DNA of 64,000 bases from Microlunatus endophyticus (GCF_014646195.1 NZ_BMMZ01000005.1:248001-312000), one strand, 5' to 3'; positions 4,526-20,727 are shown, counted from the first letter of the stretch. Numbers and translations are program-made. Notes: a model not told the origin generated them from the letters alone.

Positions 4526-5175
4526 TCAAAGTCGCTCTCGCCGATGATCAGCCGCTGGTCCGGATGGGACTGCGGGTGCTGGTCGAGGCCGAGGATGATC
4601 TTGAGTTGGTGGGCGAGGCAGGCAACGGACACGAGGTGGTCGAGCTGGTCCGGCGCGCCCGTCCCGATGTCGTCCTGATGGATGTCCGGATGCCGCTGTC
4701 GGACGGGCTGCAGGCACTCGCGAAGATCACATCGGATCCGGCCCTGTCCGCCACCAAGGTGGTGATGCTGACGACCTTCGAGTTGGACGAGTACGTCTTC
4801 GAGGCTCTGGCCTCCGGCGCCAGCGGCTTCCTGATCAAGGACAGCGATCCCGCAGATTTCGTCCGAGCCATCCGGGTCGCGGCCGCCGGAGAGTCACTAC
4901 TCAGCCCGTCAGTGACGCGACGGGTGATCTCGTCCTTCACCGGCAGCCGACCGGCCAGTCACAAGCCGCATCCGCTGCTAGGCGAGCTCACCGACCGCGA
5001 GCGGGAAGTCCTCGGCCTGGTCGGCGAAGGGCTGAGCAACGACGAGATCGCCGAACGTCTCGTGGTCAGCCCCGCCACCGCGCGGACCCACGTCAGTCGC
5101 ACCATGATCAAACTCCAGGCCCGCGACCGCGCCCAGCTCGTGGTGATCGCCTTCCAGGCGGGGCTCGTCTCGTGA
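4522..5175 (+). CDS. NarL/LuxR-family response regulator
   Basis: 217 residues: receiver domain (1-120) with acidic pocket D8/D9, phospho-acceptor D54 (VVLMDVRMP) and conserved K106 (FLIKDSDP). A LuxR-type helix-turn-helix follows at about 152-210 (LTDREREVLGLVGEGLSNDEIA). It is the cognate partner of the overlapping histidine kinase and acts as a DNA-binding transcription factor. Its targets are not evident; the next gene overlaps its stop codon and is probably in the same operon. Confidence 0.94.
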   Translation: MIKVALADDQPLVRMGLRVLVEAEDDLELVGEAGNGHEVVELVRRARPDVVLMDVRMPLSDGLQALAKITSDPALSATKVVMLTTFELDEYVFEALASGASGFLIKDSDPADFVRAIRVAAAGESLLSPSVTRRVISSFTGSRPASHKPHPLLGELTDREREVLGLVGEGLSNDEIAERLVVSPATARTHVSRTMIKLQARDRAQLVVIAFQAGLVS

Positions 5176-5933
5176 CGGGCAGTGCGAGTGAGTCGCGGCT
5201 CGACCTGCTGCAGGCCGAGATCAGCGTGATCTGGGGTCCCACCCGCCGTGCACCCGAGGCGCCGCCATCGGTGGTGATCGGACAGGCCGACGAAGAGTTG
5301 ATCATCCAGGTCCGTGATGATCTTGATCCGGGGCTTGCCGACGAGGTGCTCCGGATCGCCACGGAACAAGGACTTCCGGATGGTTCGACGGCGATCGTCC
5401 GGACGCTCGAGCCATCCCTTGGAACGATCGAGGCCACGGTCGGGCCCGGCTACGACGCCCGACACCCTGCCGACCAGCCGGACCCAGTGATCGGCCGGCT
5501 GATCAGCTCGGCGGTGGTCGATCCTGCTGTCGACGGCCTCAGAATCCCGATCACCTGGGAGGACGACGATTGGGTGGACCTGTTGTCCGGGGCGTACGGG
5601 CCGTGGGCGATGGTCATCGACGGCAACCGGGTGCTGTCGATCTGCCACAGTGCCCGGCTGGCGCCGGAGGGTGTCGAGGCCGGCACCTGGACCGTCGACG
5701 ACGCTCGAGGGCGCGGATTGGCTGCGGCGGCGACGTCGGCCTGGGCGCGGGCCTGCCGGGCCTTGCCAGGCTTCGTCTTCTACAGCACCGACATCAACAA
5801 CCGGGCCTCCCAGCGGGTTGCGGCCAGGCTCGGACTGCCGCTGATCGGCCAGCTGTGGAAATTCCGCGCAGCCGCTGAGGGCGACGGACCCCTGCAGTCG
5901 CGGCTGTGGACGCTGTCGCGGGTACGGTCGTGA
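5172..5933 (+). CDS. GNAT-family N-acetyltransferase-like protein
   Basis: 253 residues; GTG start overlaps the response-regulator stop (GTGA). The C-terminal half looks like a GNAT domain: RGRGLAAAATSAWARA is the acetyl-CoA pyrophosphate-binding motif A, followed by NNRASQRVAARLG, the typical C-terminal helix seen in FR47/GNAT enzymes. The N-terminal about 120 residues are not recognised. Its position as the third gene behind a two-component pair suggests co-expression, but a functional link is not established. Confidence 0.75.
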   Translation: MTGSASESRLDLLQAEISVIWGPTRRAPEAPPSVVIGQADEELIIQVRDDLDPGLADEVLRIATEQGLPDGSTAIVRTLEPSLGTIEATVGPGYDARHPADQPDPVIGRLISSAVVDPAVDGLRIPITWEDDDWVDLLSGAYGPWAMVIDGNRVLSICHSARLAPEGVEAGTWTVDDARGRGLAAAATSAWARACRALPGFVFYSTDINNRASQRVAARLGLPLIGQLWKFRAAAEGDGPLQSRLWTLSRVRS

Positions 5934-6944: not shown

Positions 6945-7424
6945 GTGACTGATTGGCGCACTGACCGGGTGGCCTCAGCGCTCGACGGGACCAACCCAAC
7001 CGTCGTCAGGCATCTCGACGCGGGCTTCGCCGTCGCCGGCGACGTCCAGTTCCTCCCCGGCTACAGCCTGCTGCTCACCGATCAGCCCGGAACTGACCGA
7101 CTGACCGATCTACCTCGAAACCGCCGCCTCGCCTTCCTCGGGAGTATGGAGATGCTGGGTGAGGCAGTCGAGATCGTCTGCCGCCGCCTCGATCCTGCGT
7201 TCCGACGCATCAATCTCGAGATCCAGGGCAACCTCTTGCCACTACTACACGCCCACATCTGGCCGCGATACGACTGGGAGCCCGACCACCTGGTCATGGG
7301 TCCCGTCGCGCTCTATCCCGACAGCCACTGGCGCGACCCGGATACTCGACTCGGCCCCAGCCATGATCGGTTTCGCGTCGAACTGGGCGAGGAACTGGAC
7401 CGGCTGAGGTCAAACTCCGCCTGA
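6945..7424 (+). CDS. HIT-family (histidine triad-like) hydrolase
   Basis: 159 residues from GTG 6945. The segment NLLPLLHAHIWPRY resembles the histidine-triad active site (HxHxHxx) of HIT nucleotide hydrolases and transferases, with an upstream Asn as in INLEIQGN. Only two of the three triad histidines are present: the third position reads Trp/Pro. It may be a divergent diadenosine-tetraphosphate-type hydrolase acting on nucleotide conjugates. An alternative start at GTG 6936 exists, but the -10-like TAATGT favours 6945. Confidence 0.68.
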   Translation: MTDWRTDRVASALDGTNPTVVRHLDAGFAVAGDVQFLPGYSLLLTDQPGTDRLTDLPRNRRLAFLGSMEMLGEAVEIVCRRLDPAFRRINLEIQGNLLPLLHAHIWPRYDWEPDHLVMGPVALYPDSHWRDPDTRLGPSHDRFRVELGEELDRLRSNSA

Positions 7425-7564
7425 AGTCTGCCCGGCACGACGGGCTGATGTTGCGCCCCGGTAGCCGAGCTACATGGCATAGCCACAGCTGGCCAGGGTG
7501 AGTGAGTTCCACGACGACCCGGCGCCTGCGCGCGGAAGGCGTCGGTGTTGGTGCGGGCCGCAGC

Positions 7565-7570
7565 TAGCGT
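7565..7570 (+). promoter_or_regulatory. Predicted -10 box, leaderless start of the SMR pair
   Basis: TAGCGT, six bases before GTG 7577. The 150 bases upstream were checked for a guanidine riboswitch, and none could be supported. Confidence 0.45.
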
Positions 7571-7576
7571 TGCCCT

Positions 7577-7954
7577 GTGAGGTGGCTCTTGCTGGCGTGC
7601 GCGATCATCTGCGAGGTGTTTGCATCGCTCAGCCTCGAGGGTGCGATCGATCATCCGTGGCTGTACGTCGTCGTCGGCTTCGGTTACCTGGTCTCGTTCT
7701 GGTTGTTCGGACGGGTGCTGCGGGCGGGTATGCCGGTCGGCACCGCGTACGCCATCTGGGGCGCGGTGGGCGTCGCGCTGACAGCGGTGTTGGCCGCGAT
7801 CATCTTCGACGAGTACTTGAGCACCACGACGATCATCGGTCTGGTCGTCGTCATCACCGGCGTCGTGGTCATCAACCTTGGCGGCGGCCACGGCGAGACC
7901 CGTTCCGGCGCCACGAGTGCATCCGATCCGGATGACAGGGGGCGCGGCACATGA
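7577..7954 (+). CDS. Small multidrug resistance (SMR) transporter subunit 1
   Basis: 125 residues with four transmembrane helices and the essential membrane glutamate (E13, in ACAIICEVFAS), equivalent to E14 of EmrE. The GMPVGTAYAIWGAVG segment is the conserved SMR signature. A hydrophilic tail of about 20 residues follows helix 4, which is unusual for a subfamily of about 105 residues. It overlaps the second SMR gene by 4 bases (ATGA). Paired SMR genes usually form heterodimers exporting cationic drugs or guanidinium-like compounds by proton antiport. Confidence 0.9.
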   Translation: MRWLLLACAIICEVFASLSLEGAIDHPWLYVVVGFGYLVSFWLFGRVLRAGMPVGTAYAIWGAVGVALTAVLAAIIFDEYLSTTTIIGLVVVITGVVVINLGGGHGETRSGATSASDPDDRGRGT

Positions 7955-8280
7955 GCTGGGTGCTTCTCGCGCTGGCGATCCTGTGTGAGGTCGGGGCAAC
8001 CCTGGCGTTGCGGATGGCGAGCACGCCGCGCGAGGGCAAGTCGCCGACGCGCCGCTGGTACCTGGCTGTCGTCGCCGGTTATGGGCTGTCGTTCGTGCTG
8101 TTCTCCGTCGTGCTGCGGCTCGGGATCGGCCTGGCGATCAGCTACGGCATCTGGACGGCGGCGGGCGTCGCGCTGACGGCCATCGCAGGGCGGGTCTTCT
8201 TCAAGGAAACCTTCACCCGGACGATGATCATCGGAACGCTGCTGATCATGATCGGCGTCTTCTTGATCGAGGCCGGCTGA
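7951..8280 (+). CDS. Small multidrug resistance (SMR) transporter subunit 2
   Basis: 109 residues, four transmembrane helices, with E13 in LAILCEVGATLA as the proton/substrate-coupling residue. The sequence GIGLAISYGIWTAAGVALTA is the SMR motif of helix 3. It is coupled to subunit 1 by an ATGA overlap and likely forms an antiparallel heterodimer with it. No adjacent TetR regulator is present. The substrate cannot be deduced; guanidinium exporters carry a more specific signature that I could not confirm here. Confidence 0.9.
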   Translation: MSWVLLALAILCEVGATLALRMASTPREGKSPTRRWYLAVVAGYGLSFVLFSVVLRLGIGLAISYGIWTAAGVALTAIAGRVFFKETFTRTMIIGTLLIMIGVFLIEAG

Positions 8281-8324
8281 GGCAGCCTCGAGGGTGCCAG
8301 CAGAGATGGGCCGGCTGTGGGTCG

Positions 8325-8432
8325 GGCCATTTCTCTAGCTCCGCGTTCGCCGACTTTGTCACCGACGATCCCGCCGGTCCGGCGTGTCGACCCCGGTTCA
8401 GCCAATCCTCGGCTACAAAATCAGCGGTCATG
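8325..8432. repeat. Degenerate dispersed segment, copy 1
   Basis: About 105 bases in the gap between the SMR pair and the P-loop gene resemble 49005-49113. The shared cores include CCGACGATC, GGCGTGTCG and ATCCTCGG, with one or two indels. By eye the identity is roughly three quarters. Neither copy lies in a recognised gene, so both may be remnants of the same lost gene or element. Confidence 0.5.
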
Positions 8433-8513
8433 GCCGGGCCGCCGACGAAATGCTGTTGCCGCCGGCTTCGGCTCGCGTGATGCTGGTGCCGAGTCGCGTA
8501 GAAGGGTGGCATC

Positions 8514-9068
8514 GTGGCACCAACGGTCATCGTGATCACCGGACCTGTCGGATCAGGGAAGAGCACGAGTATGCGGGCCCTCTGGGAGTTGCTCGATCGC
8601 GAGGGTGAAGCTGCCGCGATGGTCGACATGGACAGCCTGCGCGCGCTGAGCCCGGACGACCCCGCCGATCCTTTCCACGCCGGACTTGGCGTGGAGAACC
8701 TTCAAGCGATATGGCCACAGTTCGCCGCACGCGGCGCGCGCTGGCTGCTGCTGACCGACGCAGTCGAGCGTCCCGCGCAGCGCGCCGTGTACGAACGCGC
8801 CGTTCCGGACGCAGCAGTGATCATCGTCCGACTGGACGTGCCCATCGATCGCGTCCATCCACAACTCCGCGGTCGTGAGGTGGGCAGTTCCCTGGAATGG
8901 CATCTGAACCGCAGCGTCGAGCTCCAGTCGATGATGATCGAAAGAGGCGTCGGCGACGTGATCATCCCCGTCGACGGACAGCGGCCATCAGAAGTCGCCC
9001 GGTTGATTCTCGACGCGGTGCAGCTACATGTCCGATCGCCCGACGCGAGCGAGATGCCCCGACCGTGA
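8514..9068 (+). CDS. P-loop NTPase (AAA/small-kinase-like)
   Basis: 184 residues. The Walker A motif GPVGSGKST is at about 10-18, followed by a helix carrying the kinase-like substrate segment MVDMDSLRA. The pattern resembles small P-loop kinases and adenylyl-sulfate-kinase-like ATPases, but the substrate is not identifiable. Start GTG 8514 has GAAGG nine bases upstream. It is flanked by the decayed 8.3-kb segment upstream and converges on the phosphonate transporter operon, so it is probably monocistronic. Confidence 0.75.
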   Translation: MAPTVIVITGPVGSGKSTSMRALWELLDREGEAAAMVDMDSLRALSPDDPADPFHAGLGVENLQAIWPQFAARGARWLLLTDAVERPAQRAVYERAVPDAAVIIVRLDVPIDRVHPQLRGREVGSSLEWHLNRSVELQSMMIERGVGDVIIPVDGQRPSEVARLILDAVQLHVRSPDASEMPRP

Positions 9069-9093
9069 TCGCATCACACGGCCGACGCCGATG

Positions 9094-10827
9094 TCACTTG
9101 AATACGCGGCGCAGGTAGTTCGAGAGGCCTTCGACAACCAGAACCATCACGATGACCATGGCGATGATCGCGGTGACGATCGGATGGGTCGCGGTCAGGC
9201 CGGCGGCCAGGGTGAGGTAGTAGCCGATTCCGCCCGCACCGACGATGCCCAACACCGTGGCCGAGCGGATGTTGGTGTCCAGCAGATAGAGAGTGTTACC
9301 GAGCAACGAGGGCAGCCCCTGCGGCAGCGTCGCGGAGCTGAACACCTGCAGTCGCCCAGCGCCGGTGGCGCGCACCGCCTGCTCCGGACCGGCATTGACC
9401 TCCTCGAAGGAGTCGGCGATCAATTTGCCCAGCAAGCCGATACCCCCGAAGGCCAGGGCAAGCACCCCGGCCTCAGGCCCCAGGCCGGTGATGATGATCA
9501 ACACGATGGCCAGCACGAGCTCCGGCACACCGCGAAAGATCACCAGGAAGACCCGAGAGACGTTACGCACCCAGCGGTTCGGCGCGACATTGCGCGCGGC
9601 CAGCGGACCGAAGATCAACGAGAAGACGAAGGTGAGCAACGCCGCGGCGAACGCGATCTGAAGCGTCTGCTCGATGGCGGTCACATACGTCCCCACGTCG
9701 TACGATCCGAGGCTCGGCGGCCAGAAGGATTGCATCGTTGACCAGACGTACTTCCAGGTGATCTGTTTGGGATCCAGCCGCGACATCACGAAGCCGCCGA
9801 TGACGACCAGCACTCCGACCCAGGCCCAGGCGGTGGTGGAGATCCGACCGCGGCTCCAGGGCCGGTGCATCGCCTTCTCCACGGTGAGGTCGGCCTGCGC
9901 CAGAGTGTCTGCGACGACGTCCCTGGGCCGGCTGCCCCGCCGAAGCCTGCGCATCATCGTCTCGCCGAGGGTCCGGCGCGTCGGGGTCGCCCCGAGCAGC
10001 ATCACCCGGATGGTCGAGGCGATGATCTCGGTCACCACACAGAGCAGGAAGATCACGATCGCGATTCCGAGCGCCGGCCCGAAGCCCTCAGGAAATCGCT
10101 GGAAGTCGAGATTCATCCGGTAGCCCAGGCCGCCGACTCCGGCGTAGCCCAAGATCACCGAGCCGCGCAGGTTGATGTCGAAGCGGTGCAATGCGGTTGC
10201 GACCCAGCTGGGAAACACTTGCGGAAAGACACCCGACCAGAACTCCTGCGGCTTGGACCCACCCGCGGCCCGGATCGCGATCCGCGGCCCTTCGTCGATC
10301 TGTTCGACGGCATCGGCGAAAAGCTTGGAGATCATGCCGATCGAATGGAACCCGATGGCGATCACGCCGGGCCAGGTGGCGCCCAGCGCAAACATCAACG
10401 ACACCGCCATCGCCAAGATCACGTCCGGGACGGCGCGGGTGATGACACCGATCGCACGACCGATGATCCGCGTCCAGCGCGCCGGAGTGGTGTTCGATGC
10501 CGCGAGGTAGGCCACGGGGATCGAGATGACTGCGGCGACGACGGTACCGGCGATCACCACACCCAACGTGACCGAGATCAGATAGACCAGATCGGGCGTC
10601 GAGGGAAACGAGATCGGGTCCATCTGTGCGATGGTCTTCTGCAGGTTCTGCACCGACAACTGGAAGTTGTGCGGCGAGAAGTCGATCCGGGTGAGCGACC
10701 AGATGGCGAAGCCCGTCATGGCGACCAGCAGGATCGACGCGATGATCTTGTTCGTCGAGATCCTCGGACGGCGGACCTCCGCCTGACGTGCGTCCTCCGG
10801 ATGAGTATCGACCGCAGTAGCGGTCAC
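9094..10827 (-). CDS. phnE: Phosphonate/phosphite-type ABC permease, two PhnE domains fused
   Basis: 577 residues containing two complete PhnE-like inner-membrane permease domains in tandem (about 30-290 and 330-577). Each has the ATPase-contacting EAA-type loop, visible as EGPRIAIRAAGG and AGPEQAVRATGA. Typical PhnE is about 260-280 residues, so this is a genuine fusion that would supply both transmembrane halves. GTG 10827 overlaps the phnC stop. It is the last gene of phnD-phnC-phnE. No C-P lyase or phosphite dehydrogenase genes are seen nearby. Confidence 0.92.
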   Translation of the reverse strand: MTATAVDTHPEDARQAEVRRPRISTNKIIASILLVAMTGFAIWSLTRIDFSPHNFQLSVQNLQKTIAQMDPISFPSTPDLVYLISVTLGVVIAGTVVAAVISIPVAYLAASNTTPARWTRIIGRAIGVITRAVPDVILAMAVSLMFALGATWPGVIAIGFHSIGMISKLFADAVEQIDEGPRIAIRAAGGSKPQEFWSGVFPQVFPSWVATALHRFDINLRGSVILGYAGVGGLGYRMNLDFQRFPEGFGPALGIAIVIFLLCVVTEIIASTIRVMLLGATPTRRTLGETMMRRLRRGSRPRDVVADTLAQADLTVEKAMHRPWSRGRISTTAWAWVGVLVVIGGFVMSRLDPKQITWKYVWSTMQSFWPPSLGSYDVGTYVTAIEQTLQIAFAAALLTFVFSLIFGPLAARNVAPNRWVRNVSRVFLVIFRGVPELVLAIVLIIITGLGPEAGVLALAFGGIGLLGKLIADSFEEVNAGPEQAVRATGAGRLQVFSSATLPQGLPSLLGNTLYLLDTNIRSATVLGIVGAGGIGYYLTLAAGLTATHPIVTAIIAMVIVMVLVVEGLSNYLRRVFK

Positions 10828-11654
10828 GACCCGGCCCCGACGGCCCCGGCGACACTCAGCTCGCTCTCAATGGCAGCGAATTCGCTGGTGGAGACGCTGA
10901 CGTGGCCGTAGATCTCCATGGCCCTGTCTCTCGAGAGACCCGTGGTCGGGGTGTCGAGCACGACCTCGCCGTGCCGCAGCCCGACGATCCGGTCGCTCCA
11001 GCCGAGTGCCAGATCAACCTGGTGCAGCGAGCACACGACCGTCAGTCCGCGCTCGGCTGCGATCTCCCGGATGAGATTCATCACGACGTCGGAGGATTCC
11101 GGGTCCAGCGAAGCCACCGGTTCGTCGGCGAGCAACACCTCCGGATTCTGCATCAGGGCACGGGCGATGGCCACCCGCTGCTGCTGACCGCCGGAGAGCT
11201 GATCGGCCCGGTTGTACGCCCGGTGCAGCAGTCCGACACGATCGAGGTGGGTGAGCGCTTCCTGCTTGAGATTCTTGGGCCACGTCGACAGCCCGAGCCG
11301 CGGCCCTCTGACTCGCGCCAGGGCACCCGTCAACACGTTCTCCACCACCGTGAGCGACGGCACCAGCTCGAACTGCTGGAAGATCATCGCGACCCGTCCG
11401 CGCAGGCTCCGCAAAGCCGTCGGTCGCAGCGACCGCACGGATTGACCCAGCACCGTCACGTCGCCCTCGGTGGGCATCTCGAGGCCGTCGATGTGGCGCA
11501 GCAGGGTCGACTTGCCGGACCCTGACAAGCCGAGCAGGACGACGACCTCTCCTCTCGTGACGGTGAGATTCACTGCCCGGAGCGCCCGGGTCTCACCGAA
11601 GTCCTTGGTCAGGTCGGTGATCGTGATGATCGAGGAGGTCGTCGTACGGTTCAT
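10824..11654 (-). CDS. phnC: Phosphonate/phosphite-type ABC transporter ATPase
   Basis: 276 residues: Walker A GLSGSGKST, ABC signature LSGGQQQR, Walker B VLLADEP and the downstream H-loop histidine (CSLHQVDLA). The protein energises the PhnE permease in the cytoplasm. ATG 11654 has GGAG upstream. The stop overlaps the phnE start (GTGA), and the gene follows phnD by about 30 bases. The relative order D-C-E is the usual one for this importer type. Confidence 0.94.
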   Translation of the reverse strand: MNRTTTSSIITITDLTKDFGETRALRAVNLTVTRGEVVVLLGLSGSGKSTLLRHIDGLEMPTEGDVTVLGQSVRSLRPTALRSLRGRVAMIFQQFELVPSLTVVENVLTGALARVRGPRLGLSTWPKNLKQEALTHLDRVGLLHRAYNRADQLSGGQQQRVAIARALMQNPEVLLADEPVASLDPESSDVVMNLIREIAAERGLTVVCSLHQVDLALGWSDRIVGLRHGEVVLDTPTTGLSRDRAMEIYGHVSVSTSEFAAIESELSVAGAVGAGS

Positions 11655-11684
11655 CGTGCTCCTTCGCAGTCGTCCCCAACCGGA

Positions 11685-12644
11685 TCAGCTGGGTGCGCAG
11701 TTGGCAGCAGGGATGTTCTTGCAGAGGTTGTCGATGGTCGTGTAGTACGACGGCTTGAATGGCACGACACCGGCGTTCGAGGCGGAGTACGCCTTGGTGA
11801 TCGTGACTCCGGCGGCCTTCATCGTGTCCGGGTTGGCGGTCTGCAGGGCCTTGGTCACCTTGGCCTTGACGCCGGCAGGAAGAGTGTCCGAGACCTCCCA
11901 CGGCACGCCGGGAACGAACTCCTTCTTGATCGACTTCAGCCCCGAGACGTAGTCCTTGGTGTCGATGTCATCGGCGAATCCGACATCGCACTGGCCCGCA
12001 GCGACCGCCTGGGCCGACTTCGGGTGCGACCCGGCGAAGACGGCGGTGAAGTCGTCGAATTTCGGATTACCCGAGGCGTCCTGACCATCCTGCTTGACGC
12101 TGATACCAGCCTCGTTGAGCATGTTCAGGCCGAACAGGAAACCCGAGGTCGAGGTCGGGTCCACGAAGCAGACCTTCTTGCCCTTGAACTGGGACACGCT
12201 CGTGATCGGAGAGTTCTTCGGCACCCATGCCTCGGAGTAGTAGCCCGGCTGCGTGGCGCCCGGGGACATCTGAAGCGAGACCGGGGTGAACTTGCCGCCC
12301 TTGTTCTTGACCGTCTCGTACTCCAACGCCCCGGCGGTGAAGACGTCGACCTTACCGGCGACCGCGGCCGCGATCAGGCTCGGATAGGAGGTGGTCGGGA
12401 AGAACTTGACCTTCAGCCCGGTCTGCTTGGCGAGGTAGTCGGCCACCGGCTGGTAGCCCGACTCACCGCTGGTCTCGTCGGGCAGATTGCCGACCACGAT
12501 CGTGCCCGAGTCAGCGGCGAAAGTCCCCTTCTGGCTCGAGGATCCGGGGGTGTCGGCGGCAGACGATGTCCCACAGGCGGCGAGAGTCGCGATCATTGCG
12601 ACGCTGGCAGCTGCGAGACCGACGGCCTGGGTGCGCAAACGCAT
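11685..12644 (-). CDS. phnD: Phosphonate/phosphite-type substrate-binding lipoprotein
   Basis: 319 residues from ATG 12644, which has GAAAGG as Shine-Dalgarno; a longer frame extends upstream but lacks these signals. The lipoprotein signal has a hydrophobic stretch ending LAACG, cleaved before Cys. The mature part is a PhnD-like periplasmic-binding fold (GNLPDETSGESG, FVDPTSTSGFLF segments), whose members bind phosphonates, phosphite, hypophosphite or phosphate esters. It begins the phnDCE operon. The exact ligand cannot be read from the sequence. Confidence 0.92.
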   Translation of the reverse strand: MRLRTQAVGLAAASVAMIATLAACGTSSAADTPGSSSQKGTFAADSGTIVVGNLPDETSGESGYQPVADYLAKQTGLKVKFFPTTSYPSLIAAAVAGKVDVFTAGALEYETVKNKGGKFTPVSLQMSPGATQPGYYSEAWVPKNSPITSVSQFKGKKVCFVDPTSTSGFLFGLNMLNEAGISVKQDGQDASGNPKFDDFTAVFAGSHPKSAQAVAAGQCDVGFADDIDTKDYVSGLKSIKKEFVPGVPWEVSDTLPAGVKAKVTKALQTANPDTMKAAGVTITKAYSASNAGVVPFKPSYYTTIDNLCKNIPAANCAPS

Positions 12645-12863
12645 GGGTTGCCTTTCGGATGTTCCGGCCCGAGCCGGACAGCAGGACGCGCCGACCATAG
12701 GAGCCGGGCATGAACCGCGTGGCAACTGTGATCGACAGCGAAGGAAATCCCGTCTGAATCAGTCGCGAGCCGGGCGATCCGCGCCGGGGCGGAGAGCCGT
12801 TTGACCGATTGGCCCCCGTGGGCGGCACGATAGGGTCGGGTGATCGAACTCACGAGGAGCGGG

Positions 12864-13601
12864 ATGAGCAACCAGGGATACGGTGGACCACAGGACCCGT
12901 ACGGACAGCAGAACCCGTACGGGCAGCAGGATCCGAACCAGCCGAATCAGCAACCGGGGCAACAGCAGCCCGGGCACCAGTCGGGCGGCTATCAACAGCC
13001 CGGCGATCAGCAGTCCGGTTGGCAGCAGTCCGGTGGCTATCAGCCGGCTCCCCCGGTCGGCCCGGGCCAGATGCCCTACGGGCAGAGTTCTTTCAAGCCG
13101 GTCGGCGATCCGGGGACACTCGACCTGCCCTGGTACGGCATCGGTTTCGGACAGGCGATCAAGCGCGCCTTCCAGAAGTACGTCCGCTTCGACGGCCGGG
13201 CCAGCCGGAGTGAGTTCTGGTGGTTCTACCTGTTCAACGCCCTCGTCGGCTTCGTGCTGTCGATCCCGTCCGAGATCGTGAATATCAGCCAGTCGGTGTC
13301 GGCGGCGTCGAACGGCACCACCCCACATCTGGGAACTGTCTATCTCGCTCAGATCCCGGTCTACATCTGGACCCTGGCGGTATTGCTGCCGACGCTGGGG
13401 ATCACCTGGCGCCGGCTGCACGACACCAACCGGTCCGGCGCCTGGTGGTTCCTCAACTTCGCCTGCGGGATCGGCGGCATCGTCCCGCTGATCATGTGCA
13501 TCATGGACAGCAATCCCGAGGGTCAGCGTTTCGATCGCGTCCAGAACGCCGGGGGATACGGACAGGCTCCGGGAGGATATCCGGGCGGGCCCAGCTACTG
13601 A
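12864..13601 (+). CDS. DUF805 membrane protein with Gln/Gly/Pro-rich N-terminus
   Basis: 245 residues from ATG 12864 (GAGGAG ahead); an earlier in-frame GTG at 12840 lacks such a site. The first about 85 residues are low-complexity (YGQQNPYGQQDPNQPNQQ-like repeats). The DUF805 core follows, with FDGRASRSEFWWFYLF near 108-123, four transmembrane helices and the conserved WRRLHDTNRSGAWW motif. The family is of unknown function. The Q-rich tail is probably cytoplasmic and disordered. Confidence 0.85.
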   Translation: MSNQGYGGPQDPYGQQNPYGQQDPNQPNQQPGQQQPGHQSGGYQQPGDQQSGWQQSGGYQPAPPVGPGQMPYGQSSFKPVGDPGTLDLPWYGIGFGQAIKRAFQKYVRFDGRASRSEFWWFYLFNALVGFVLSIPSEIVNISQSVSAASNGTTPHLGTVYLAQIPVYIWTLAVLLPTLGITWRRLHDTNRSGAWWFLNFACGIGGIVPLIMCIMDSNPEGQRFDRVQNAGGYGQAPGGYPGGPSY

Positions 13602-13613
13602 GGCCTGCCCGCG

Positions 13614-15728
13614 TCAGAAGCTACCGACCCGATCCTTTGACCGGGCAAGCTCGTAGGCGGCCTGCAATCCCTGGCTGGTGGCGCGTACCGCGTTGAGTCC
13701 GGCGGTGGACTCTGCGCCACCGACGACGCGGTACGGCACTCCGAGACCGGCGATCATCGCGACCAGCGAGTCGTTGCGTTCTTGACCCGCTGCGATGATC
13801 ACCGTGTCCGCGGCGATCAGCTGACGCTCGCCGTCGGCGTCGGTGATCACCAGACCGTCGTCGGTGATCTCCTGATAGTCGATGTCGGTCAACATCCTGA
13901 CACCGTGGTGCCGGATCGATCCGACCACAGCCCAGCGAGTGGTCAGCCCCATCCCGGACCCGACGCGCCCCGTCCGGCGCATCAGCGTCACGGTTCGAGT
14001 CGGCTTCGGCGGCTGGTGCTCAGCGGCCGGTTCGGCAAGGCCCCATTCGCCTAGAAAGCCTTGCTGGCGTCCTGCAAGGTCCCCGGTGCCGTCATCGACG
14101 AGCAGGTGGGCAAGATCGACGGCGATTCCGCCACCGCCGATGATCGCCACCCGGTCGCCGATCGACTCGGGATCGGCCAACGCCTGGTGATAGCTGATCA
14201 CATTTGCGCGGTCTGCCCCCGGCAGCTCGACTTCGCGAGGCAGTACGCCGGTGGCCAGCACGATGCCTCCGCACCCGCTCAGCTCCGCCTCGTCCCGATC
14301 GGTGATCGGGTGGCCGAGGCGTACGTCAACGCCGAGGCGTGCCAGCTCGGCGGTGAAGTAGCGGATGGTCTCACCGAAGTCGCGTTTTCCCGGCACCCGC
14401 CGGGCCATCCGGAACTGGCCGCCAAGCTCGTCCTCGGCCTCGTAGAGAGTCACTTGGTTGCCGAGGTCCGCCAGCGCCCGGGCGGCTTCCAGGCCGGCCG
14501 GGCCACCGCCGATCACGGCGAACCGGCCCGTTGCCCCGGCGCCCTGGGGGAATTCGAGTTCGCGGCCGGCGCGTGGGTTGACCAGGCACGACACCGGTGT
14601 GTCCCCGATCGACCGGTCGATACAGGCCTCGTTGCAGGCGATACAGGTATTGACCAATTCAAGCCGGCCGTTACGTGCCTTGGAGACGAACGCCGGATCG
14701 GCCAGGAACGGGCGAGCCATCGAGACGAAGTCGATCTTTGCGCCGGCGAGGATCTGCTCGGCATGATCGACATGGTTGACCCGGTTGGACGCGATCACCG
14801 GCACGTCATGGCCGGCCGCGACCAGCGCATCCTTGATCGACTCGGCGACGGGGACCCAGACCCCCTGCGGGACCAGCGTCTGCACGGTCGGGATCTGCGC
14901 CTCGTGCCAGCCGACGCCGACATTGATCGCGTCGACACCCTCGTCCGCAAGCGCGACCGCGAAGTCCGCGATCTCCTCCGGAGTGCTCGAGTCCGGCACC
15001 AGGTCGGCGCCGGAGATCCGGAAGATCACCGGGAGCTCGCCGGAGACGTGCTTGATCATCCGGAGCAGCTCGAGCGGGAAGTTCCGTCGCCGTACGGCGT
15101 CACCGCCCCAGTGATCATCCCGCTGGTTCGTCAGCGGCGACAGGAACTGGTTGACCACGTAGCCCTCGGACGCCATCACTTCGATCGCGTCGAAACCCAA
15201 CGCCCGTACGGTTGCAGCGGCACGGGCGAAGTCCGCGAGCGTCTGCCGGATCTGATCCTCGGTCATCGCCTCCGGCATACACCGGGAGAATCTGCTGTAG
15301 ACCGCCGAGGGTGCCACCGGGGTCAGGCCGAAGGCCGACTCGAAGGCGTACCGGCCGGCATGAAACAGCTGGGCCGCGATCTTGGCGCCGCCCTCGTGGG
15401 CAGCGGCTACCGCACGGGCGAGCCCTTGCTCATGCTCAGGATCGCCGATGATCGCGTACATCCTGCCGCCGGCGCCGACCCGGTTGACCGCGATGCCACC
15501 CGTGACGATCAGGGACGCGCCACCCCGGGCCCGCTCGGCGTAGAAGGCGGCCAGAGCCGCACCGTGATCATCGCGGGCCTCGAGGTTGAGGTGCATCGAG
15601 CCCATGATCAACCGGTGGTCGAGCCGGAGGCTTCCGAGCTGCCCGGGCCGGTCCCACATCTGGCGAGAGGTCACCGGCTCGGCACCGCGCCGCGGATATT
15701 GAGGAATATGTGACCCCTCGGCGGACAT
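13614..15728 (-). CDS. 2,4-Dienoyl-CoA reductase-type flavoenzyme in the cyclohexanecarboxyl-CoA operon
   Basis: 704 residues: an N-terminal old-yellow-enzyme TIM barrel for FMN (about 24-340), a [4Fe-4S] cluster motif with C362, C365, C369 and C381, then an FAD/NAD(P)H half with VIGGGPAGLEAA at about 405-416. This is the layout of 2,4-dienoyl-CoA reductase (FadH). In this operon it could reduce a cyclohexadiene-carboxyl-CoA intermediate. The ATG lies 3 bases after the SDR stop codon. The first about 15 codons contain an arm of a dispersed repeat (15702-15720), so a later start such as GTG 15674 is possible. Confidence 0.88.
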   Translation of the reverse strand: MSAEGSHIPQYPRRGAEPVTSRQMWDRPGQLGSLRLDHRLIMGSMHLNLEARDDHGAALAAFYAERARGGASLIVTGGIAVNRVGAGGRMYAIIGDPEHEQGLARAVAAAHEGGAKIAAQLFHAGRYAFESAFGLTPVAPSAVYSRFSRCMPEAMTEDQIRQTLADFARAAATVRALGFDAIEVMASEGYVVNQFLSPLTNQRDDHWGGDAVRRRNFPLELLRMIKHVSGELPVIFRISGADLVPDSSTPEEIADFAVALADEGVDAINVGVGWHEAQIPTVQTLVPQGVWVPVAESIKDALVAAGHDVPVIASNRVNHVDHAEQILAGAKIDFVSMARPFLADPAFVSKARNGRLELVNTCIACNEACIDRSIGDTPVSCLVNPRAGRELEFPQGAGATGRFAVIGGGPAGLEAARALADLGNQVTLYEAEDELGGQFRMARRVPGKRDFGETIRYFTAELARLGVDVRLGHPITDRDEAELSGCGGIVLATGVLPREVELPGADRANVISYHQALADPESIGDRVAIIGGGGIAVDLAHLLVDDGTGDLAGRQQGFLGEWGLAEPAAEHQPPKPTRTVTLMRRTGRVGSGMGLTTRWAVVGSIRHHGVRMLTDIDYQEITDDGLVITDADGERQLIAADTVIIAAGQERNDSLVAMIAGLGVPYRVVGGAESTAGLNAVRATSQGLQAAYELARSKDRVGSF
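15702..15720 (+). repeat. Single arm of the AGGAANNNNTGACCCCTCG repeat inside a CDS
   Basis: AGGAATATGTGACCCCTCG matches the arms of the hairpin at 35537-35625. Here it encodes part of the N-terminus of the flavoenzyme on the opposite strand. Confidence 0.65.
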
Positions 15729-15731
15729 GGG

Positions 15732-16550
15732 CTACCTCGTCGGGCGTTCGGGCAGGGTCAGCGGGGCCTCGGTGTCGGCGAAGAACGGCGGCGCCACGAT
15801 GCTCAGTCCGCCGTCGACGACGATCGTCTGTCCGGTGATGTACTCCGCACCCGGCGACAGCAGGAAGGCCAGGGTGTCAGCGACCTCCTGCGGAGTGCCT
15901 GGCCGGCCCTTCGGGATCCGGTCCAGCACGGTCTGCATCGACGCCATCCCCGGAACCCCGTAGAAGTAGTCGAGCGAGTCGGAGTCGATCAAGCCGCCGT
16001 TGACAGCGTTGACATTGATCCCGTACGGCGCGAATTCCAGCGCCATGTAACGGACCCACGCCTCCGCCGCCGCCTTCATCGCACCGAGCGTGGCGTAGGT
16101 GGGGTAGGCGCGGATGCTGCCGTACGAGGTCAGTGTCAGGATCCTGCCACCCTGGTCCATCAGCTTGACGGCCTCCTGGGCGCCGAAGACCAGCGGACGC
16201 AGATTCATCGCGTACGAGCGATCCAGGTGATGGGGCTTGAGGTCGACGATGTTCTTGAATGCGCTGGCCGCAGCATTGGAGACGAAGTAGTCCAGCCGGC
16301 CGTAGTTGTCGGCGACCGCGTCGAACAACGACGCGACTCCCCCGTCGGCCTCGACATCGGCCTGCACCGCGATACCCTGGCCGCCCAGCTCGACCACGTC
16401 GGCGACGGTCTTCTCCGCCAGGTCGGCGCTCTTCTTGTAGTTGACGACGATCGTCGCCCCCTCTTTGGCCAGGGTGAGCGCCAGCGTCCGGCCGATGCCA
16501 CGGGACGCACCGGTGATCAGCGCGATCTTGCCCTCATGCAACTTGCTCAC
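15732..16550 (-). CDS. chcA: FabL-type enoyl-thioester reductase, likely 1-cyclohexenylcarbonyl-CoA reductase
   Basis: 272 residues from GTG 16550, whose GTGA overlaps the upstream acyl-CoA dehydrogenase stop. The NADPH motif TGASRGIG is at 13-20. The catalytic pair is Y152-x6-K159 (YATLGAMK), the spacing of enoyl reductases FabI/FabL rather than the Y-x3-K of ordinary SDRs. ChcA of Streptomyces collinus, which reduces 1-cyclohexenylcarbonyl-CoA, belongs to this group. Role inferred: reduction of one or more ring double bonds in cyclohexanecarboxyl-CoA formation. A housekeeping FabL role is the alternative. Confidence 0.8.
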
Positions 16551-17728
16551 AAGACATCCTTCGACTTCTGGAGTTCGCGGAAAACAACCATCTTCTGGAT
16601 CTCGTTGGTGCCCTCTTCGAACCGCTGGGCGCGGGCGTCCCGGTAGACCCTTTCGATCTTCTCGGTCTTCCAGTAGCCCAACCCGCCATGGATCTGCAGC
16701 GCCTTGTCGGTGGCCCGGGCCAGCATCTCGACTGCGGTCATCTTCGACATCGAGGACAGCGCCGACCCGCGCGGTGAGCCCGCCTCCCACTCCCGGGCCG
16801 CGTGCAGGATCAACTGCTTGGCGGCCTCGATGTCGGCCTCGTTCTCGGCCAGCATGAACTGGATCGCCTGGCGCGCAGTCAGCGGCTTGCCGAAGGTGGT
16901 CCGCTTGCTGGCGTAGTCGTAGGCCAGTTCCTGCGCCCTGCGGGCCAGGCCGACGCAGCTCATCGCGACCGAGATCCGTGACGGGGTGAGGAATCCGCCG
17001 AGCGCGACCTCAAGACCCTGACCCTCGTCACCGAGCCGGTTCGCCACCGGGACCGGAGCACGGTCGAAGATCATGTGCGCGTGATCGGTGCCGGTCACGC
17101 CCATTGTCTGGGAGGTGTCCTTGACCGTCACGCCGGGAACATCCCGCGGCACCATCAGCGCGACGGTGCCCTGATGGCCGGTCGAGCCGGCGAGGCGGGC
17201 CGCCAGCAACCAGTAGTCACAGCGGACCCCGAAGGTGATCAGGTGCTTCTCACCGGAGAGGTAGTAGGTGTCCCCCTCCTTCTCGACCGAACAGGTGATG
17301 TCGGCACCGGTGCCGTTGCCCGGCTCGGTCAGTGCGAAGGCGACCTTCTTGGTGCCGGCGACCGACGGCCGGACGAACTGATCACGCTGTTCCTCGGTTG
17401 CGAAGGGATCCATCGCCCGCCAGGTGCCGTTGACGACGTGCACGATCATCCGGACCGAGGCGTGCGAGGCGGAGAAGATCTCCATCAGGCCCATCCACTG
17501 CTCGAAGGACAGTCCCTTGCCGCCAAGGCGTTGCGGTGCTGCCATCGAGAGGTAGCCGCGCTCGCGCAACTCGGTCCAGAGCTCCTCCGGCACTTCGCCG
17601 GTGGCCTCGATCCGGTCCGTCCAGTCCTCGCCGGGGCCACGGACCCACTCGGTCACCTCGGTGACGAGCTTGTCGTGGTCACCTTGGGCGATGCCGTGCA
17701 CTACGACAGGCTCCGTGCTCTGACTCAC
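16547..17728 (-). CDS. Acyl-CoA dehydrogenase of the cyclohexanecarboxyl-CoA operon
   Basis: 393 residues, the normal acyl-CoA dehydrogenase length. The FAD/acyl contact motif [13 protein letters not shown] is at about 132-144, and the C-terminal signature with catalytic Glu is [13 protein letters not shown] 17728 shares one base with the stop of the preceding ligase fusion, and its own stop overlaps the SDR start. In the known shikimate-to-cyclohexanecarboxyl-CoA gene set an acyl-CoA dehydrogenase homologue takes part in ring redox chemistry. Working in the reducing direction is inferred, not shown. Confidence 0.85.
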
Positions 17729-20727
17729 TACTGCTTCCCTCCCACGCGCTGGGGCTTCAAGCCCTTCGCCTGCTCCCGCAACAAGAATTTCTGGATCTTA
17801 CCGGCAGCGTTGCGCGGCAGCACGTCGATCACCTCGAGGCGCTCCGGCCAGTAGTACTTGGCCACCTGATGATCATCGAGGTAGGCGATCATCTCGTCGA
17901 AGCTGATCTTGGACCCGGACTTGGCCACCACGAAAGCACAGGCCCGCTCGCCGAGCCGATCATCGGGCATCGCCACCACCGCGACATCGTCGACCGACGG
18001 ATGCTCGTAGAGCAGGTTCTCGATCTCGGCGACCGGCACCTTTTCGCCACCGCGGTTGATCACGTCCTTGACCCGGCCGGTGATCCGGATGTAGCCGGAC
18101 TCGTCGATGATCCCGAGGTCGCCGGTCTTGTACCAGCCGTCCTCGGTGAAGGCCTCCGCGGTCAGATCCGGCCGGTCCAGGTAGCCCTGGAACTTCGTCG
18201 GCGAGAGGATCTCGAAGTTGCCCTCGGTATCCGCCGCCAGGACCACACCGTTGTCGTCGGTGATCCGCAGCTTGATGCCCTCCAGCGGGCGACCGTCGGT
18301 ACCCCACACCTTGACCGGCTCGTCGGTCGGCACGCTGAGCGCGCCGAGGCAGGTCTCGGTGGTGCCGAAGGCTCCGCAGACCGCGGTGCCCAGCACTCGG
18401 GTGGCCCGCTCGGCGAGACCGCGCGGCACGGCAGCACCGGTGGCGACGAAGATCCGCAGCTTGCCCGGAGCCTCCTCGCCGTTCTCCACCGCCTTGACCA
18501 GGTCGGCCAGGAACGGCGTCGCAGCCTGGACGAAAGTTCCTTCACCCTCGCGCAGCGCCTGCAGCGCCCGCCGCGGGTCCCAGACGGCCTGGATGATCTC
18601 GGGCACGCCGAGCGTCATCGCGACCCACATCCCGTACAGGAAGCCGGTCTGGTGGGCCAGCGGGCTGGGGATGTAGACCGCGTCCGAGGCGTCGAGTCCG
18701 AGATGACGGATCTCCATGGAGGCCGCCCGGGACAGCGTGCCGCCGGTCATCAGGGAGCCCTTGGGTTCGCCGGTGGTACCGGATGTGAAGAGCAACTGAG
18801 CGGTCTGGTCCGGCGTCGGCTTCCGGTCGGCAAGTGCCTGGGTGTCAACGTCGCCGGTGAGCAGGTCGCTCCAGTCGTGCCAGGACACGTCGCCCGGGGA
18901 CCAGTCGGCGCCGATCTGCACATCGCCCGGCAACACCACCACATGCCGGAGGTCTTCGGGCACGTCACCGTAGTCGCCGTTGACGATGCCGGCGATCTCC
19001 TCGGCATGAGCGCGACCGCGGAAGGTGTCGGGCACGAACAGCACCCGGGCCTTGGCCCGCCGCAACATGAAGGCGATCTCACGCTGCCGGAAGATCGGCA
19101 TCAGCGGGCAGCACACCGCGCCGATCCGCATCGTCGCCAACGCGATGATCACGAATTCGGTCCAGTTCGGCAACTGCAGCGCGACCGGTTCGCCCGGCTG
19201 TACGCCGAGTCTGATCAGCTGTGAGGCGACCTGGTTGACCTGTTGGTCGAGCTCACCCCAGGTGATCTTGTTGGTGGCGCGCGGCCGGGCGTCGATCACG
19301 GCGACGTCGTCCGGACGTTCGGTCGCCCAGCGGGTCAACCAGTCCGACAGTGTCAGCTGTGCAGCAAGATCGGGATGCTCGGCTTCCTTGGGCAGTTTGC
19401 GATGTCCGCGGGTCGCGCGGCTGGGCGTGCCACCCTCCACGGTCATCGGAATGCCGAAACCGTTCATCGCCTCGAGGTAGGTGGGATAGGAGATCCGGTA
19501 CGCGTTCGGATAGGTCAGCGTAGACTCGCCGGTCGCCGTGGACGCGGCGATCGCCAGCGACATCAGCACCCGGTGATCGTTGAAGGACGACAACTTCGCA
19601 CCGTGCAGCTGATCAATGCCGCGGACCCGCAGGACGTCACCGTCAAGATCGAGATTGCCGCCCATCTGGTTCAGCTGCAGCATCGCCGAGACCCGGTCGG
19701 ATTCCTTCAACCGGACGTGGGCGATGTTGCTGAAGGTGGTCTCGCCGTCGGCGAAAGACCCCATCACGGACAAGATCGGCAGCATGTCCGGGATACCACG
19801 GCAGTCGATAGCGGCCGGCTTCAACCGGATGCCGTCGTGGCTGATCCGTACGCCCTCGTCGGTCAGCTCCATCGGCACGCCCATCTCGCGGGCGATGTCG
19901 AGGAAGTGCACCTCGGGGTGGTCGGCCGGGCCTCCGGAGAGCTGGTTCATCCCGCGCAGCAGGATGTCAGAGGGGTGCAGCGCCGCAGCGGCGATGCCGA
20001 AAGCCGCGGAGCCGATGTCCGGCGGCATCACCAGATCGCAGGTGGTCGCCTGCTGGTTGGGCTCGATCTCGAACCGGCGCCAGTCCGGGGAGAAGCTGAC
20101 CTTGAGGCCGAACTGCTTCATCATCTCGACGGTCAGCTCGATGTAGGGCTGCTCGTTGAGCTCACCCTGGACCTCGATCACGGTCTTGCCGGTGGCGAAG
20201 GGCGCCAGCAGGATCAGACCGGAGATCCATTGCGACAGCGTGCCGGCGATGGTGACGTGGCCGCCGGCGGGACGCTTGGCCTTGACGCTGATCGGCGGGC
20301 AGTCATTGGCCGACTCGAGCTCCACGCCCATCTGTTCGAGTGAGCGGAGCAGTGGGCCGACGGGCCGACGCTGGAAGTATTTCTGGCCGGTGACGACGAC
20401 GTCCTTCTCCGACAGCGCCGCCAGGCCGATCATGAAATAGAGCGTGGTGCCGGAGCTGCCGGCGGAGACGCTGTCCTTGGCCGGCCGGTAGGTCCCGCCG
20501 AGGCCGTGCACGATGAAGGTGTCGCCCTCGATCTCGATCTTGACGCCCAGGCCGCGGAGCAGGCCGACGGTGTACTGGACGTGGCGCGCGTCGGAGAGTC
20601 CGGTGATCCGGCTGACCCCCGGCGCCAGCGAAGCGAGAATGAGGGCACGGTGTGCGTGGTATTTGGAGTTCGGCACGAGTGCTTCACCGGTCAGCCGACC
20701 GCTGGTTCCCTTGACGAGCAGATGCAT
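17728..20727 (-). CDS. EPSP synthase-like/acyl-CoA ligase fusion, cyclohexanecarboxyl-CoA pathway
   Basis: 999 residues from ATG 20727 (GGGAG nine bases upstream). Residues 1 to about 430 are an EPSP-synthase (AroA) fold keeping NSKYHAHRAL, LSQWISG, CRGIPDM, RLKESDR and FNDHR. The usual NAGTAMR reads GSSGTTLY, so it is probably not a standard AroA. After a short linker comes an AMP-forming ligase (about 455-999) with TSGTTGEPKG, GAFGTTETC, YKTGDLG and terminal Lys in NAAGKIQK, most like cyclohexanecarboxylate/fatty-acid:CoA ligases. Shikimate-derived acids are the expected substrates. It is the first gene of the operon. Confidence 0.85.
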   Translation of the reverse strand: MHLLVKGTSGRLTGEALVPNSKYHAHRALILASLAPGVSRITGLSDARHVQYTVGLLRGLGVKIEIEGDTFIVHGLGGTYRPAKDSVSAGSSGTTLYFMIGLAALSEKDVVVTGQKYFQRRPVGPLLRSLEQMGVELESANDCPPISVKAKRPAGGHVTIAGTLSQWISGLILLAPFATGKTVIEVQGELNEQPYIELTVEMMKQFGLKVSFSPDWRRFEIEPNQQATTCDLVMPPDIGSAAFGIAAAALHPSDILLRGMNQLSGGPADHPEVHFLDIAREMGVPMELTDEGVRISHDGIRLKPAAIDCRGIPDMLPILSVMGSFADGETTFSNIAHVRLKESDRVSAMLQLNQMGGNLDLDGDVLRVRGIDQLHGAKLSSFNDHRVLMSLAIAASTATGESTLTYPNAYRISYPTYLEAMNGFGIPMTVEGGTPSRATRGHRKLPKEAEHPDLAAQLTLSDWLTRWATERPDDVAVIDARPRATNKITWGELDQQVNQVASQLIRLGVQPGEPVALQLPNWTEFVIIALATMRIGAVCCPLMPIFRQREIAFMLRRAKARVLFVPDTFRGRAHAEEIAGIVNGDYGDVPEDLRHVVVLPGDVQIGADWSPGDVSWHDWSDLLTGDVDTQALADRKPTPDQTAQLLFTSGTTGEPKGSLMTGGTLSRAASMEIRHLGLDASDAVYIPSPLAHQTGFLYGMWVAMTLGVPEIIQAVWDPRRALQALREGEGTFVQAATPFLADLVKAVENGEEAPGKLRIFVATGAAVPRGLAERATRVLGTAVCGAFGTTETCLGALSVPTDEPVKVWGTDGRPLEGIKLRITDDNGVVLAADTEGNFEILSPTKFQGYLDRPDLTAEAFTEDGWYKTGDLGIIDESGYIRITGRVKDVINRGGEKVPVAEIENLLYEHPSVDDVAVVAMPDDRLGERACAFVVAKSGSKISFDEMIAYLDDHQVAKYYWPERLEVIDVLPRNAAGKIQKFLLREQAKGLKPQRVGGKQ

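Follow-up and report, generated by a model that had tools for sequence, protein, structure and literature searches.

The DNA considered here is a 64,000-nucleotide stretch from Microlunatus endophyticus (NZ_BMMZ01000005.1:248001-312000), referred to below as the window. It carries a gene for a single polypeptide in which a domain resembling EPSP synthase (EPSPS, or AroA) is joined to an acyl-CoA ligase. This fusion gene is the first of a tight four-gene operon that continues with an acyl-CoA dehydrogenase (ACAD), a short-chain dehydrogenase/reductase (SDR), and an old yellow enzyme (OYE)-type reductase. The best explanation of the whole, with a probability of about 0.6, is that the operon makes cyclohexanecarboxyl-CoA (CHC-CoA) from shikimate and that the fusion protein is its bifunctional entry enzyme, the EPSPS-like half of which would be a shikimate 1,4-dehydratase. 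The assignment of the operon to the shikimate-to-CHC-CoA pathway is strong; beyond it, we infer the substrate, the reaction, the roles of single residues, and channelling.

The fusion gene occupies positions 17728 to 20727 as one continuous frame of 999 codons, as the initial annotation had described, and lies on the minus strand, running from an ATG at 20727 to a TAG at 17730-17728 with no internal stops. The chance of an open frame of this length at this composition is about 7e-11; the plus strand has two stops in the same register, and GC per codon position (0.66/0.45/0.88) favors a minus-strand gene. The start codon is supported by the alignment of M1 with M1 of full-length relatives. On this one chain, Pfam recognizes EPSP_synthase (residues 9-421, E 9e-87), AMP-binding (465-850, 6e-68), and AMP-binding_C (901-977, 1e-14). 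Residues 1-425 (19453-20727, minus strand) constitute the EPSPS-like domain, as defined by Pfam and by residue comparison with E. coli AroA. A linker at approximately residues 426-464 (19336-19452, minus strand) differs in length and sequence among relatives, and the acyl-CoA ligase domain (approximately residues 465-999; 17731-19335, minus strand) is defined by Pfam, NCBIfam, and motifs. All of the EPSPS motifs listed initially are located in the translation (NSKYHAHRAL at 20-29, LSQW at 164-167, RGIPDM at 310-315, RLKESDR at 339-345, and NDHR at 383-386), together with the unusual loop GSSGTTLY at 90-97. The ligase motif set is equally complete: the P-loop TSGTTGEPKG (648-657), the hinge GRVKD (884-888), and GKIQK (976-980, with the GK and the catalytic lysine) accompany both Pfam ligase domains, as in acyl-CoA ligases of the ANL superfamily.

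A search for fused architectures returned 22 intact genes, in Streptomyces, Cellulomonas, Curtobacterium, Gryllotalpicola, and the window's own family, which establishes the fusion as real. Neither a frameshift nor an overlooked stop can explain the fusion, because full-length relatives (57-65% identity) hold a single frame through both domains, and the occurrence of the intact genes in independent genomes rules out sequencing error as the source of the fusion. A scan of named genomes found full-length fused relatives at 54-62% identity in Cellulomonas timonensis, C. cellasea, Curtobacterium species including C. pusillum, a Microbacteriaceae isolate, and Gryllotalpicola ginsengisoli; genome G040 has a further fused copy. 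Three more members of the window's family carry the gene, one with a disrupted frame. The genus of genome G253 is taken to be Streptomyces, and the Streptomyces counts rest on that assignment: intact fused copies are present in 10 of 393 genomes (11 genes), and an eleventh genome has a truncated copy. The initial annotation described the two functions as separate genes in Streptomyces; on the contrary, every intact copy sampled from this genus is fused. Degraded copies were also observed: a truncated EPSPS-like gene with an in-frame TGA (L085 in G484, 8961-9974), and a locus with broken frames in the fusion, ACAD, and OYE genes, reflecting decay or poor assembly (L125 in G1504, 7259-14287).

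The first domain scores above the cut-off of the NCBI AroA equivalog model TIGR01356 (318 versus 287 bits) and, to judge from its sequence, is nevertheless not an ordinary AroA. Phylogenetically, the fused, unfused, and Bacillota EPSPS-like proteins form a clade of their own apart from AroA (SH-aLRT 95-100). A separate AroA-type paralogue is present in most of the hosts checked, and two further AroA-type genes lie in the window's genome. In EPSP synthase, the central domain binds the carboxylate and phosphate of shikimate-3-phosphate (S3P) and the terminal domain binds both hydroxyls (PMC8983318). Residues were compared with E. coli AroA (sequence from NC_000913.3), whose numbering is used except where window numbers are specified. 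In window numbers, the domain keeps K22, R27, R121 (equivalent to R124), S165-Q166, Y195, D314, K341, E342, R345, H385, and R386, and is changed at Y23 (S23 in AroA), S91 (N94), Y97 (R100), L164 (S169), E192 (S197), H337 (N336), and I412 (K411). The S3P-binding residues S23, S169, S197, and N336 are thus all replaced, both in the window protein and in its operon relatives.

These changes are family characters. All intact operon proteins have S23Y, N94S, R100Y, S169L, S197E, N336H, and K411I, and they keep K22, R27, G96, R124, S170, Q171, Y200, D313, K340, E341, R344, H385, and R386. The GSSGTTLY loop is likewise a family signature and no defect peculiar to the window copy. R100Y, S169L/N/F, and S197E are fixed in 34 of 34 relatives; among 18 AroA-type proteins, S197 is present in all 18, R100 is unvarying, and S169 is unvarying save for a threonine in one. 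The loss of K411 and the change at N94 were dropped as diagnostic because one or the other also varies in the AroA-type proteins of other genomes. Two Bacillota matches (L043 and L044) were rejected as CHC relatives, since they keep every tested AroA residue except A95, which is serine. A divergent second AroA-type paralogue with the loop CRDGATPSRF lies in the window's own genome (G000; L001, contig C23:11464-12669), which also has an Actinobacteria-type AroA on contig C2.

The remaining operon genes follow the fusion gene on the minus strand without appreciable gaps. The ACAD-family protein (393 aa, GTG start, 16547-17728) overlaps the fusion stop codon by one base; the SDR (272 aa, GTG start, 15732-16550), probably a ChcA-like reductase by sequence, overlaps the ACAD stop by four bases; and the OYE/2,4-dienoyl-CoA-reductase-like flavoprotein (704 aa, 13614-15728), encoded by the last gene, begins three bases after the SDR. 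The best NCBIfam model for the ligase half is cyclohexanecarboxylate-CoA ligase TIGR03208 (490.8 bits, not reaching the cut-off of 792.3). The nearest models for the ACAD are acryloyl-CoA reductase and cyclohexane-1-carbonyl-CoA dehydrogenase, and for the SDR a FabL-type enoyl reductase, all below curated cut-offs. The operon links the acyl-CoA ligase, SDR enoyl-CoA reductase, dienoyl-CoA reductase, and ACAD-like genes that a CHC-CoA operon is expected to have. The order fusion-ACAD-SDR-OYE is kept almost throughout (in Curtobacterium, Gryllotalpicola, most Streptomyces, G040, and the family members). At the Cellulomonas loci L036 and L037 (13141-16389), no SDR gene was detected between those for the ACAD and the OYE-type reductase, and the enzyme may be encoded at another site.

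The hosts also connect the operon with cyclohexane rings. Curtobacterium pusillum is recorded as having omega-cyclohexyl fatty acids, in a paper that cites Suzuki 1981 for this (PMC5023266), and its genome (L042) carries the same operon; the link between genotype and phenotype involves one named species and is supportive rather than proof. Propionibacterium cyclohexanicum is another producer recorded in that source. In Streptomyces G253 (L074) the operon abuts a modular polyketide synthase (PKS), and other Streptomyces loci lie near FabH (G574, L084) or FabF (G404, L076) genes. No PKS gene was seen among the annotated neighbors of the window operon, and for this reason priming of omega-cyclohexyl fatty acids is the most likely use of its product in Microlunatus; in some Streptomyces, the same operon is best explained as serving polyketide starters.

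In the proposed mechanism, the EPSPS-fold half would have given up enolpyruvyl transfer and would bind shikimate itself. Ser169, Ser170, and Ser197 are reported to contact the S3P phosphate (structure 1G6S; UniProt P0A6D3). A glutamate at position 197 together with the loss of Ser169 would repel a phosphate and could bring an acidic group to O3, and the elimination of water from shikimate is proposed on this ground. The conserved glutamate (E192 in window numbers) would stand in for the phosphate and serve as the acid, with D314 or E342 as candidate bases, in a 1,4-conjugate elimination that removes the 3-hydroxyl (as water) and a C6 hydrogen to give 3,4-dihydroxycyclohexa-1,5-diene-1-carboxylate. 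This diene acid is reportedly the first intermediate of the CHC route, according to labelling work by Floss, Moore, and Reynolds. The ligase half would adenylate the acid and transfer it to CoA, so that CoA activation would come after the first elimination; the OYE-type reductase, ACAD-family enzyme, and SDR would subsequently convert the CoA ester to CHC-CoA by reduction and dehydration. Handing a shikimate-derived acid to CoA activation, as first suggested, is still the most plausible role of the fusion; the direct channelling claimed with it may occur, what was observed being the fusion and the gene order.

The sister group of the operon clade in the tree consists of eight stand-alone Bacillota relatives (L115-L122, e.g., the gene L118:9281-10567 on the minus strand) with R100Y, S169N/F, S197E, and K411I/V. 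These also pass the NCBI AroA equivalog cut-off. CHC-operon neighbors were found at none of the eight loci. An uptake system adjoins the gene at all eight: a branched-chain-type ABC transporter in L115, L118, and L119, a TAXI-TRAP transporter in L117, L120, L121, and L122, and TctABC in L116. An IclR-type regulator is a neighbor at seven of the eight. Because uptake transporters adjoin the genes, an imported, unphosphorylated substrate is suggested; these surroundings suit the breakdown of a carboxylate taken up from outside, and a phosphorylated substrate would be difficult to square with them. The eight genes probably belong to undescribed catabolic operons.

Several points weigh against a shikimate dehydratase. 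The phosphoenolpyruvate (PEP)-site residues R124, E341, R344, H385, and R386 are all retained, with no obvious need for them in a pure dehydratase. The choice of serines as contacts of the S3P phosphate depends on structure 1G6S, and the ligase and ACAD scores lie far under the NCBIfam equivalog cut-offs, so that they do not fix the identity of the substrate. An AlphaFold model built from eight fused sequences is confident for the EPSPS half only and carries no ligand information; at the top of its Foldseek list stand EPSP synthase structures containing S3P and glyphosate (TM of about 0.8 across the target). The full-length model is poor over the ligase half (mean pLDDT 56), and because of this no domain arrangement or channelling is concluded from it. 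An open-access literature search found no paper on the fusion or on EPSPS homologues in CHC biosynthesis, nor did it find an ansatrienin or asukamycin gene-cluster paper.

The alternative that survives best, although it is unlikely, is that the EPSPS-like domain acts on S3P and eliminates phosphate, in a 1,4-elimination like that of chorismate synthase carried out on the EPSPS fold, with the same product and later pathway. Phosphate is the better leaving group, S3P should be available in every host from AroK, and the equivalents of K340, S170, Q171, and Y200 are kept. However, the replacement of Ser197 by glutamate and the loss of Ser169 in all of the relatives disfavor a phosphate at C3, and the carboxylate-type uptake systems beside the Bacillota genes point to a substrate that is probably imported without phosphate. 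It is improbable that the domain remains an enolpyruvyl transferase that uses shikimate instead of S3P, the enolpyruvyl group leaving later. The retained PEP contacts would suit this, and the exchange of K411 for isoleucine is not diagnostic, K411 being absent also from some Bacillota AroA-type proteins; yet R100, N94, and K411 are all altered in the operon clade, and the operon has no later enzyme to remove the enolpyruvyl group.

Slightly less probable again is an operon that breaks down cyclohexanecarboxylate or shikimate and does not make CHC-CoA. The best NCBIfam matches include cyclohexanecarboxylate-CoA ligase and cyclohexane-1-carbonyl-CoA dehydrogenase, which are known also from degradation, and the Bacillota relatives have a catabolic look. 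Set against this, the operon has two reductases and lacks a hydratase, thiolase, and ring-opening enzyme, it is present in a species that makes omega-cyclohexyl fatty acids, and Streptomyces copies lie beside PKS, FabH, or FabF genes. An ordinary AroA fused to an unrelated ligase, as the TIGR01356 score alone might imply, is ruled out for practical purposes by the separate clade, the conserved substitutions at substrate-binding positions, the other AroA-type genes of the hosts, and the conserved CHC-type operon.

The history of the fusion can be followed in an unfused form, seen in a different actinobacterial family (f58; four genomes, loci L092-L095). Here the EPSPS-like protein (441-445 aa) has a gene of its own, and individual ligase, ACAD, and SDR genes come directly after it. 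An OYE-type reductase was not detected in the 20 kb of sequence covered at any unfused locus, and for that reason another flavin or F420 reductase may stand in. The best NCBIfam model for the ligase of L092 is again TIGR03208; at this locus (G862), a luciferase-like monooxygenase gene (4776-5792) comes after the SDR gene. All 20 fused domains included in the tree fall on one side of a single branch (SH-aLRT 95), adjoining the unfused ones (100), and one fusion event between neighboring genes followed by spread would be the simplest history. In this tree the window copy clusters with those of Streptomyces and Cellulomonas, away from the family members L112 and L113, which suggests horizontal transfer. 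In a plasmid search, identity was at most 32% among the matches listed, most of which were annotated aroA.

Likenesses to known systems are partial. The shikimate-to-CHC-CoA pathway of Streptomyces collinus (for ansatrienin) was reportedly described by Cropp et al. in 2000 (cited in PMC10295569), with ansJKLM and chcA as its genes. The same set of functions is expected there, and the operon recurs at Streptomyces loci; in all intact Streptomyces copies sampled, the first two functions are fused. The window domain has the fold and most catalytic residues of AroA and passes its Pfam and NCBIfam models, but differs in the seven substitutions, the separate clade, and the attached ligase. Similarly, the C-terminal half resembles TIGR03208 and other acyl/aryl-CoA ligases, but falls short of the TIGR03208 cut-off (491 versus 792) and is fused to an EPSPS-like domain. 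Pentafunctional AROM/Aro1 also contains an EPSPS domain within a multi-enzyme polypeptide (PMC9074039); in contrast, it joins shikimate-pathway enzymes, has a canonical EPSPS, and lacks a CoA ligase. The flanks of the operon look unrelated to it, with a melibiase-like gene on the opposite strand upstream of it and, downstream, a phosphonate-type ABC transporter operon (permease, ATPase, and binding protein; 9094-12725).

We know of no enzyme assigned by assay to the reaction that begins the route from shikimate to the cyclohexane ring, the loss of the 3-hydroxyl. The fusion, the ancestor-like unfused form, and the conserved retailoring of an active site that has probably changed its reaction name a candidate for this step and make it testable. 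The 'AroA' labels that database models give to the operon proteins would mislead surveys of pathways and of glyphosate targets. More broadly, and with odds slightly short of even, a family of shikimate 1,4-dehydratases (R100Y, S169L/N/F, S197E), wrongly annotated as AroA, may have evolved on the EPSP synthase fold. One branch, which would have become joined to a CoA ligase a single time, would feed cyclohexane-ring biosynthesis in Actinobacteria, the ring being used in unusual membrane fats and antibiotics. The other, the stand-alone Bacillota branch beside IclR regulators and uptake transporters, would begin the breakdown of shikimate, or of an acid like it, after import, and points to an undescribed route for the use of shikimate-like acids.

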